Origin: Phycisphaerae bacterium
GTDB lineage: Bacteria; Planctomycetota; Phycisphaerae; UBA1845
Reading direction: 5' to 3'
NCBI GenBank assembly: GCA_029260215.1
Contig: JAJDDQ010000070.1
Span: forward strand, 62,001-126,000
Length of the DNA stretch: 64,000 nt
Shown: positions 21,073 through 54,308 of the stretch, one piece after another
Layout of the letters: each line of letters opens with the position of its first letter
How positions within the stretch are numbered: position 1 is the stretch's first letter
Made by a program: the position numbers and the translations under genes
The notes under the pieces: model-generated
Databases searched by the model: none
What the model was told of the DNA's origin: nothing
What the model saw: only the letters and a program-made list of their open reading frames with translations

Positions 21073-22479
21073 TCATCGACGGCGTTCTCCGGATGGTTTT
21101 TTCGATGGTTTCGACTTGGTCTTGTCGTCTGACGAATGAGCGGTGGTGCTTTTTCTATCGCGAAGCGTTGTCTGGCCCTTGACTGTTCGGGCGGAGGGTT
21201 TTCGCGAAACTTTGGCTTCGGAAGCCTTTTTCCTGCTCGAAGCATCGTCCGACTTCTGTGCGGCGGATGAGGATTTGATATTCGCACCGCGTCTCGGAGG
21301 CAACATCCGGCTCCTTGCCGTCTGCTGCGAGTAGATCGGGACGGTGAGAATTTCGGTGAACTTGTCGTCGGTTCTGATTCGGACGTTTACGGTATTTTGA
21401 TCAGCGACGTAATTCTTCGGCACGGTGACGACCACGAATTGCTGTTCGTCTTCTTCGACGACCTTGGCGACCAGCTTGGAATCGTCCACTTCAACATCGA
21501 TGGCACGTCCGGTCACACCCTTGGCCCAGTTCAAGTGGATTCTGAAATCTCGCTCGGACGAGATGATCGATGGGAGGCGGATGTTGGCTGGCTTAGCTTT
21601 GACGCGCGCCTCGAAGTAGCCGGCGAGCGGATAATTGAGCGTGGGGGCTTGGCTCAAGCCGGTTTTGAGCGTGAGTTGGTGACGGAATTTCTCCTGGGCG
21701 GTGGGCAGGATGGTGACAATTAGCTCGTATTCTTCGCCTGGAGTGATTTCCTCGATCGAGGCGATGATGCCTTTCTCGGGGGCACTGAGAACCGCGGGTT
21801 TGAGCGGACCGCCGTCTCCCTTGCTGAATTTGAAGCGCTTCGTTCGCGACGCATCGTCGCCGTCACGTGTAAGACGGCCGAGATTGATGCTGCGAAAAGT
21901 AGCTGATATCGGTTCGAGAAGTTTCCCCTTGCAGGTCAGACTGACTTTCGGATTCGACGGATCGTTCGTCGTGACTTGAATCTTGCGGTTGAATGCTCCA
22001 CGGAGCTTCGAGCAGCTGAGGGTTACGGACAGATCTTCTGTTGCACCGGGCTTGATCGTACGGTCGGACCGACCGTTGAATCGAGTGCCTCACCCACCCT
22101 TCGCGCGAATCAGCAGGTCGGCGGTCCCTTCGTTCTTGATTTTGAAGGGGAACGTTAAGATGTCTTTCCCACGCCACACCGGGGGCAGGTCCACCACGAG
22201 GTTTTCGCAGGACCACTTCGCGTCAGGGTTCATCGGCAGTGCGGGCGCAGTTCGCTTGCTGCGTCTGCTGGATGGAGTCGCGCGCGGGCCAGCCACGTTT
22301 TTTCGGATCTTCGCGTTACCGGCCGATTGGGCGGAAGATTTTTGTTTCAGGGCCGGAACGGCGGCCTTTCCGGGGGCTGCCTTCTTGACCGATTCCTGGC
22401 CCAGTGTCACGCCGGTCGCCAAAAGGCAAAGCAGCATTGTCCTCGTCAAATCGCTTCGTCGCAAACGTTGTGTCGTCAC
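21073..22479 (-). CDS. DUF1573 protein with in-frame UGA, candidate selenoprotein
   Basis: One reading frame runs from GTG 22479 to the stop at 21073, interrupted only by TGA at 22092-22090. The 144 codons after the TGA contain no stop and no ATG, GTG or TTG, so the second half cannot start by itself. GTG 22479 has GGAGG 9 nt upstream; ATG 22488 sits directly against it. The product would be 468 residues with the recoded residue at about 130. It has a signal peptide (TMLLCLLATGVTLGQ), a DUF1573-type beta domain (FPFKIKNEGTADLLIRAKGG, then the UGA, then GTRF and later VTTNDPSNPKVSLTCKG) and a basic tail. The UGA sits where the family usually has its Cys-Gly-Cys motif. A hairpin follows at selenocysteine spacing. 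A plain nonsense mutation is the alternative. Confidence 0.75.
22054..22082 (-). promoter_or_regulatory. Candidate bacterial SECIS-like hairpin after the in-frame UGA
   Basis: Reading the minus strand from the UGA, bases 14-19 (ACGGUC) pair with bases 25-30 (GACCGU) around a GGUCC loop. A short outer stem GAU/AUC pairs bases 8-10 with 34-36. The loop GGUC starts 20 nt after the UGA. In E. coli fdhF, as I remember it, a GGUC loop starts at about 19 nt. The upper stem lacks the bulged U of fdhF. SelB binding is untested. Confidence 0.55.
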
Positions 22480-22642
22480 GTTCTTCATCCTCCGAATTCT
22501 GATCCAAATGAGTTCCGCATCATACGATAAACGGAGGGGGATCAAAAGGCCTCGTCGCCGCAAGTTCTTACCGAAAAGATTGAGCCGTTCCGTTACGCCT
22601 GTCTACCTGTCGTCCGAATATCGCTCGACAGGTAAATCAAAG

Positions 22643-52251: not shown

Positions 52252-53730
52252 GTGGCCGGCCTGACCAGTCAGCAAGTTGATGATATCGCCGGGCGCGTGC
52301 TGAGGAAGCTGGCCCAAAACGCCGGCACCCCCGCGCAAACGCCACCGCCACCGATAGCGTGCGGCGAAGCGCACAGTCGGCCCACGTCACAGAAATCGTC
52401 AGGCCACTCCGGCGCATTCCCCGAAGTCGACGGAGCAGTACAGGCCGCCACCGACGCATTCTACAAATTCGAAGCCATGCCGCTCGCACGTCGCGCCAAA
52501 ATCATCGCGAACATCCGCGAACAAATGTTTGAGAATGCAGAATACCTCGCCCGCGAAGCCCACGCCGAAACAGGCTTGGGACGCTGGGAGGACAAGGTTC
52601 TCAAAAACCGCCTAGTCACCGAAAAAACAGAAGGAACCGAAGCCCTCGTACCCACCGCCACGACCGGGGACCGGGGCTTAACGCTCATGGAGCGTGCTCC
52701 GTTCGGCGTCATCGCGTCCATCACGCCGTGTACCAACCCGACTTCCACGATCATCTGCAACACCATCGGCATGTTGGCCGCCGGAAACTCGGTCGTGTTC
52801 AACGTACACCCGACAGCCAAAATCGTGTCCATGCGTAACATCGCGATGCTCAACGACGCCATCACCGCAGCAGGCGGACCGCCCAATCTCGTCACCGGCA
52901 TCGCCAACCCGACCATCGAGTCGGCCCAAGCGCTGATGACCCATCCCGGCGTACGACTGCTCGTCGTAACGGGTGGTCCCGGCGTCGTCGCAGCCGCCAT
53001 GCAAAGCGGAAAACGCGCCATCTGCGCAGGCCCAGGCAATCCCCCGGTCGTGATTGACGAGACCGCCGATATCGAAAAAGCAGGGCGCAGCGTGGTCCAG
53101 GGCGCTTCACTGGACAACAACGTCATCTGCACGGACGAAAAAGAAGCATTCGTTGTCGAGTCGGTGGCGGACGAGTTCCTCAGCGCAATGAAGCGCCACG
53201 GCGCGATCGTGCTCGACGCAGGGCAAACGCGACAACTGGAAAACCTGATCTTCAAAGAACGTCGCGAACCGCCGCAATCCAGCGTCATAAGCCGCGACCT
53301 GATCGGCAAGAACGCCGGCGTCATCCTGGGCAAAATCGGGGTACACGTTTCGGACGACATTCGCTTGGCGGTCATCGAAGTCGACAAACGTCATCCGCTG
53401 GTCTGGACCGAGCAGTTAATGCCGGTGTTCCCAGTCGTCCGCGTCGCCAACGTTGACGACGGCATCGACTTAGCCGTCGCCGCCGAAGGAGGCCGACGAC
53501 ACTCTGCCGCAATGCACTCCCGCAACATCGAAAAACTAAGTCGAATGGCCCGGCTCATGAACTGCAGCATTTTCGTCAAGAACGGCCCCTGCTACGCCGG
53601 ATTGGGCCAAGGCGGCGAGGGCTATTGCTCGTTCTCCATCGCCAGCCCCACCGGCGAGGGGCTGACCGGGCCTCGAAGTTTCACACGCGAACGCCGCTGC
53701 GTACTCGTGGATCATTTTCGAATCGTATGA
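52252..53730 (+). CDS. CoA-acylating aldehyde dehydrogenase (PduP/EutE type), BMC cargo
   Basis: 492 residues from GTG 52252. It oxidises acetaldehyde to acetyl-CoA with NAD and CoA. The N-terminal 24 residues (LTSQQVDDIAGRVLRKLAQN) form an amphipathic helix like the encapsulation peptides of PduP, followed by a Pro-rich linker. The Rossmann region includes IASITPCTNPTSTIICNTIG. Catalytic Cys293 is in DNNVICTDEKEAF. The segment PVVRVANVDDGIDLAVAAEG is near the C-terminus. The stop overlaps the next start (ATGA). It takes the aldehyde made by DeoC inside the shell. Confidence 0.95.
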   Translation: MAGLTSQQVDDIAGRVLRKLAQNAGTPAQTPPPPIACGEAHSRPTSQKSSGHSGAFPEVDGAVQAATDAFYKFEAMPLARRAKIIANIREQMFENAEYLAREAHAETGLGRWEDKVLKNRLVTEKTEGTEALVPTATTGDRGLTLMERAPFGVIASITPCTNPTSTIICNTIGMLAAGNSVVFNVHPTAKIVSMRNIAMLNDAITAAGGPPNLVTGIANPTIESAQALMTHPGVRLLVVTGGPGVVAAAMQSGKRAICAGPGNPPVVIDETADIEKAGRSVVQGASLDNNVICTDEKEAFVVESVADEFLSAMKRHGAIVLDAGQTRQLENLIFKERREPPQSSVISRDLIGKNAGVILGKIGVHVSDDIRLAVIEVDKRHPLVWTEQLMPVFPVVRVANVDDGIDLAVAAEGGRRHSAAMHSRNIEKLSRMARLMNCSIFVKNGPCYAGLGQGGEGYCSFSIASPTGEGLTGPRSFTRERRCVLVDHFRIV

Positions 53731-54308
53731 GTACCACACAGGCCATCGCACTGCTCGAATTGGACAGCGTCGCCGTCGGCACGCGCGTGGCCGACGCTAT
53801 GGTCAAGCGTTCGCCCGTCCGCCGGATTCGCATCGGCACCGTCCAGCCGGGAAAATACCTGATACTCGTCGGCGGGTCGGTGGCGGAAGTGGAAGAGGCC
53901 CATCTCGCCGGCCTGTGTGAAGGCGGCGAAGCACTCCTCGATGAAATCATCCTGCCCGGCGTGCATGAACAAGTGCTCGACGCGCTCGACCACAAGCGGC
54001 GAAAAGACCGCGACGACGCACTGGGCATTCTCGAATTCTCGTCAATCCCCGCCAGCGTGTTGGCCGCCGACGTCGCCGTAAAATCCGCGAACATTTCCAT
54101 CGTCGAGATTCGCCTCGGCGACGGTTTGGGCGGCAGCGGCATCACCCACCTGACCGGGAAAGTTGAAGACGTTCAGTTCGCAATCGAAGCAGGCGTCGCA
54201 TCGGTACGCAGAGCGGAGGTCAATGTGCGCTCGGTCGTCATACCGCAATTGCACCCGGAAATTCAAGAGCAGCTTGGGCAGTCAACATCCTTCTCCGGAT
54301 CGGGTTGA
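53727..54308 (+). CDS. BMC-T shell protein, PduT-like but lacking the Fe-S cysteine
   Basis: 193 residues from ATG 53727, sharing ATGA with the dehydrogenase stop; a longer upstream reading is an overlap artefact. Two BMC domains: AIALLELDSVAVGTRVADAM with QPGKYLILVGGSVAEVEEA, and ALGILEFSSIPASVLAADVA with IRLGDGLGGSGITHLTGKVE. The layout matches PduT, where a Cys before PGK binds a 4Fe-4S cluster at the trimer pore. Here that position is Gln40, so a cluster there is unlikely and the pore may pass metabolites instead. Confidence 0.9.
   Translation: MSTTQAIALLELDSVAVGTRVADAMVKRSPVRRIRIGTVQPGKYLILVGGSVAEVEEAHLAGLCEGGEALLDEIILPGVHEQVLDALDHKRRKDRDDALGILEFSSIPASVLAADVAVKSANISIVEIRLGDGLGGSGITHLTGKVEDVQFAIEAGVASVRRAEVNVRSVVIPQLHPEIQEQLGQSTSFSGSG

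Follow-up and report, generated by a model that had tools for sequence, protein, structure and literature searches.

Selenoproteins of the DUF1573 family have been described before. The family pfam07610 is listed among prokaryotic selenoprotein families as OS_HP2, with the motif UxC (PMC2398784), and DUF1573 is also listed as a selenoprotein family with the motif UGC (PMC9312934; PMC13188914). The members listed as OS_HP2 (pfam07610; NCBIfam NF041425, OS_HP2_seleno) came from an Olavius algarvensis symbiont and the GOS metagenome. The use of selenocysteine (Sec) in planctomycetes is likewise already known (PMC4807772). An earlier note on the DNA studied here, from a Phycisphaerae bacterium, proposed a DUF1573 gene as a new selenoprotein and knew of no established DUF1573 selenoprotein family; at the family level this does not hold, as pfam07610 is the listed OS_HP2. 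What appears to be new is a mainly Sec-using clade of proteins with a lone Sec, its breadth, and the changes from Gly-Sec to Cys-Cys within it. No description of a lone-Sec clade was found in the literature searched, which did not extend to the original OS_HP2 paper and a Haft selenoprotein paper.

The gene lies on the minus strand at 21073..22479 of the window, the whole 64,000-nucleotide stretch of DNA that was analysed. Translation of the frame 22479-21073 confirms that it is open but for one internal TGA at 22092-22090 (codon 130; 22090..22092, minus), with the codons on either side in one frame. The read-through product has 468 aa with Sec as residue 130 in the motif G-G-U-G-T, and the frame ends at a normal TGA stop (21075-21073) 339 codons past the Sec codon. 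The start is a GTG at 22479 with GGAGG ~9 nt ahead of it; translation could instead begin at the in-frame ATG at 22488, 9 nt upstream of the GTG. The second half has no usual start of its own, as the earlier note had stated: the 144 codons past the TGA are free of ATG, GTG and TTG, and the nearest downstream start is codon 145 after it. Homology is continuous across the TGA in relatives of the protein. Residues 1-28 (VTTQRLRRSDLTRTMLLCLLATGVTLGQ; 22396..22479, minus), a basic and hydrophobic N-terminus read off the translation, form a probable export signal. A lipobox-like start, for instance ALVVGCS or AAVAGCD, is present in some of the homologues.

The read-through protein was searched against 150 related genomes, 117 of which contained homologues, and the TGA codons were taken from the DNA of the homologous loci. 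A family tree built with the Sec column masked, which rests on few columns and leaves many forks unresolved, is divided by a 100/100 split into clade A, which includes the window protein (43 Sec and 6 Cys forms), and clade B (16 Cys and 10 Sec forms; motif C/U-G-C, with one CKC). The 43 clade-A sequences with TGA at query residue 130 are spread over 36 genomes in 29 genera, from 4 families of a single order, and typically read AKGG-U-GTRFNGRSDRTIKPG. TGC or TGT occupies the Sec column in the other 6, which branch from within the Sec forms at three or more points, and Sec has apparently been replaced by Cys several times within the clade. Some homologues therefore have Cys opposite the in-frame UGA and others have UGA, the pattern expected of a selenoprotein and the one that the earlier note had said would support Sec. 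All clade-A sequences derive from genome assemblies (MAGs where named) and are known at gene level only; the named relatives with TGA homologues are Phycisphaerae/Planctomycetota MAGs. One of the loci (L040; G018:C19:10360-12711) holds a tandem pair of Sec-type DUF1573 genes, both with a TGA and a hairpin of their own. No conserved gene neighbourhood was found around the DUF1573 gene, and no neighbour hints at a function.

The window protein resembles OS_HP2 in that the two have the Pfam domain in common and Sec stands at the first Cys of a Cys-x-Cys motif. Unlike OS_HP2, with its UxC/UGC motif and second Cys, it has UGT, and it falls in a separate clade, across the 100/100 split. NF041425 has a curated cutoff of 100 bits. 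The window protein, at 46.1 bits (E 4.7e-12), is well below it, and three more members of clade A score 37-61 bits; five UGC-type forms tested reach 86-128 bits, with the Desulfobacterales form at 128. UGC-type DUF1573 Sec proteins occur in the same order (L103-L105, L107, L109, L110), in Myxococcota including Enhygromyxa (L076, L077, L079) and in Desulfobacterales (L080). Their TGA lies at the alignment column of the Sec in the window protein and, in those from the same order, is followed by a hairpin at equal spacing, but they keep the second Cys and belong to clade B, which is mostly Cys. The same-order set, from families f8 and f4, has the hairpin GGTCAGT(A/T)TGACC. Ordinary CGC-type DUF1573 proteins of planctomycetes and Bacteroidota also have the Pfam domain in common with the window protein, but carry Cys at the site and mostly have no hairpin there. 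The earlier note's argument from a Cys-Gly-Cys motif is correct in that the TGA takes the place of the first Cys in the CGC motif, but it overlooked the second Cys, which is Thr in the window protein and is missing from all 43 clade-A Sec forms; most of these have T, V or M after UG.

Past the TGA, at 22076-22060 (22060..22076, minus), is the hairpin that the earlier note had placed at the expected distance. It reads ACGGUCG-GUC-CGACCGU, a SECIS-like element with its apical loop 20 nt past the UGA. Bacterial SECIS (bSECIS) rules call for a stem of 4-16 bp, a loop of 3-9 nt, a G in the first two loop positions, a spacing of 16-37 nt and an energy of ≤-7.5 kcal/mol (PMC13188914). The window hairpin agrees with them throughout, with 7 bp, a 3-nt loop (GUC) starting with G, the 20-nt spacing and -10.0 kcal/mol for the hairpin region. 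Taken alone it does not stand out: stems of at least 7 occur in 8% of the 60-mers taken along the window, and its fold z-score is only -1.25. The weight of the hairpin evidence comes instead from its conservation across homologues. When 28 TGA forms were aligned without gaps, with the 7-bp helix at a fixed place, 94.9% of the cells of the 7-pair helix were paired, versus 17-47% in slid controls, and both sides had changed in 15 cells versus 2.7 expected in shuffles (0/500). The pair at the stem base may be AU, GC, UA or CG, and the first loop position is G in 28 of 28. Among 85 non-redundant homologues, a stem of at least 6 bp is found in 49 of 53 TGA forms versus 5 of 32 others (Fisher p = 4e-13, only indicative as the sequences are related). 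The terminal TGA of the DUF1573 gene is followed by no stem longer than 4 bp. In two loci with a Cys form (KGCCGS; L029:1687-1749 and L030:2341-2403), the SECIS position is still occupied by a 6-bp hairpin, CGGCTC-GAA-GAGCCG, which may be left over from a recent change from Sec to Cys.

For Sec insertion, the genome has adjacent selA (460 bits) and selB (375 bits) genes, as well as selD (364 bits). The selD gene has an in-frame TGA of its own near the N-terminus (G000:C34:22037-22960; L060, TGA at locus 1531) in the context ASCAG-U-AGK, at the active-site Cys/Sec position of SelD. Sec-type SelD is known elsewhere, and this selD is probably a selenoprotein itself; since it too carries an in-frame TGA, two or more selenoprotein genes are probable for the genome. 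A gene for tRNA-Sec was not found in the assembly (97% complete, 88 contigs), whether with a covariance model, with an anticodon/T-arm pattern or with the gene of a relative as BLAST query, and those sub-cutoff matches that were examined are other tRNAs. Because relatives possess tRNA-Sec (17 of 24, including 13 of 20 clade-A genomes, with anticodon TCA in all ten examined), the missing selC is likely an assembly gap. The earlier note had proposed to look for selA, selB, selD and tRNA-Sec in the genome. The three protein genes are there and tRNA-Sec was not found; among the findings that the note had named as speaking against Sec, this absence from a draft assembly is the only one encountered, with selA and selB both present.

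SelA was found in 30 of the 36 clade-A genomes, including all those at least 90% complete; the six without it have a completeness of 87% or less. Within the order, SelA is also often present where a genome lacks a clade-A Sec gene. In family f4 genomes (for example G066:C6:150507-151658), the profile matches to SelA break near position 183/192 within one open frame, which suggests a lineage-specific insertion.

The read-through protein matches Pfam DUF1573 (PF07610) with 45 bits against a curated cutoff of 26.1. The match, to a DUF1573/HYDIN-like Ig domain at residues 95-186 (21922..22197, minus), spans the TGA and bears out the earlier claim that the encoded beta domain continues across the stop. 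An AlphaFold2 model calculated from the window protein (21271-22239) and 14 relatives is all beta, with a mean pLDDT of 88. In it, Sec (model residue 50) sits in the first domain, in the loop that joins strand 42-47 to strand 52-54. A confident single-domain model across the TGA counts as support for a selenoprotein. Foldseek matches with ciliary central-apparatus, titin, cadherin and other Ig-like chains have low TM-scores and, as tandem Ig/HYDIN-type proteins, are useful only for the predicted fold class. A sequence search for solved structures related to the window protein found none.

From the conserved TGA, the Cys alternates, the conserved hairpin, selA, selB and selD, and the precedent in the family, we consider it almost certain that the DUF1573 gene is unbroken and that its product is a selenoprotein, with UGA read as Sec; the earlier candidate is thus supported by aligned TGA/Cys homologues, hairpin and Sec machinery together. 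The ribosome would reach the UGA at codon 130 of the DUF1573 mRNA, where a SelB-type factor bound to the downstream hairpin would bring Sec-tRNA to the codon, and translation would then proceed to the normal stop 339 codons on. The product would be a tandem Ig-like (HYDIN/ASH-type) protein, probably exported, whose first domain carries the single Sec in a Gly-Gly-Sec-Gly loop.

That a stop codon interrupts the gene in a draft assembly of 88 contigs could also point to a pseudogene or a miscall, that is, a nonsense mutation in an ordinary Cys-type gene. However, the TGA recurs at the same codon throughout the 43 clade-A sequences, both sides of it are conserved with few other internal stops, and the hairpin goes with the TGA. 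The aligned TGA codons reject this explanation for the clade, and for the window gene it is scarcely credible. Decoding of the UGA as Cys, Trp or Gly, through a code change or plain read-through, would agree with the Cys found in some relatives. Yet 12 of 19 long genes in the window end in TGA, as does the DUF1573 gene itself, so that TGA is an ordinary stop elsewhere in the window and a general reassignment is rejected. The presence of selA, selB and selD, and of a hairpin that obeys bacterial SECIS rules and is mostly missing from the Cys forms, also argues against another amino acid, and we regard this reading as very improbable. UGA decoding competes with termination, and the codon could conceivably act as a selenium-sensitive switch that mainly terminates to give a 129-aa protein, with occasional read-through; the lack of a start soon after the TGA means that the second half would not be made separately. 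The 129-aa form, however, would stop inside the Ig-like domain and probably would not fold, and the sequence downstream of the TGA is conserved throughout, making such a switch highly unlikely.

The role of the Sec residue is less certain. Gly precedes it in all 43 clade-A Sec forms, whereas Cys stands there in 5 of the 6 Cys forms (p = 3e-6 with relatedness ignored; two of the five Cys-Cys forms are identical in the region). Because these replacements add an adjacent Cys, as if one Sec were worth a Cys-Cys pair, our best guess, held tentatively, is that the protein provides a redox-active selenol in the cell envelope. Cys is frequent at query residues 91 and 183 (12 and 14 of 18 sequences), and judging from the alignment either could be a partner for Sec. 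Vicinal Cys-Cys arrangements also occur in soft-metal sites, and a lone Sec with no adjacent Cys, replaced by such a pair in Cys forms, might bind a soft metal or metalloid instead. This seems unlikely, as no metal-handling neighbours are conserved and most selenoproteins are redox proteins (PMC9312934; PMC13188914).

To a broader proposal we give somewhat less than even chances. Clade A would be ancestrally a Sec-using envelope protein in which Cys can do the work of the single Sec only when two Cys stand side by side; the change from Gly-Sec to Cys-Cys apparently arose in three or more separate lineages. It would form a natural Sec-to-dithiol series in a fold other than that of thioredoxin, and the conserved peptide G-(R/Q)-(S/A)-D-R would have been shaped by the SECIS hairpin.

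With UGA read as Sec, many planctomycete DUF1573 genes that standard gene callers truncate or split would be whole selenoprotein genes, and a broad, mostly Sec-using clade would be added to a family so far listed only in its UGC form. What selenium adds to an Ig-like, non-thioredoxin protein could be asked by comparing the Sec forms with the Cys-Cys forms nested among them and with the sister clade, which has UGC and CGC forms; together they make a clean set for the purpose.

A codon-score scan for stops inside the coding frames of the window gave its top match at 54044 (minus), which is a shadow of a gene on the opposite strand. That gene, at 53628-54308 (plus), encodes a bacterial microcompartment shell protein (BMC domain, PF00936).
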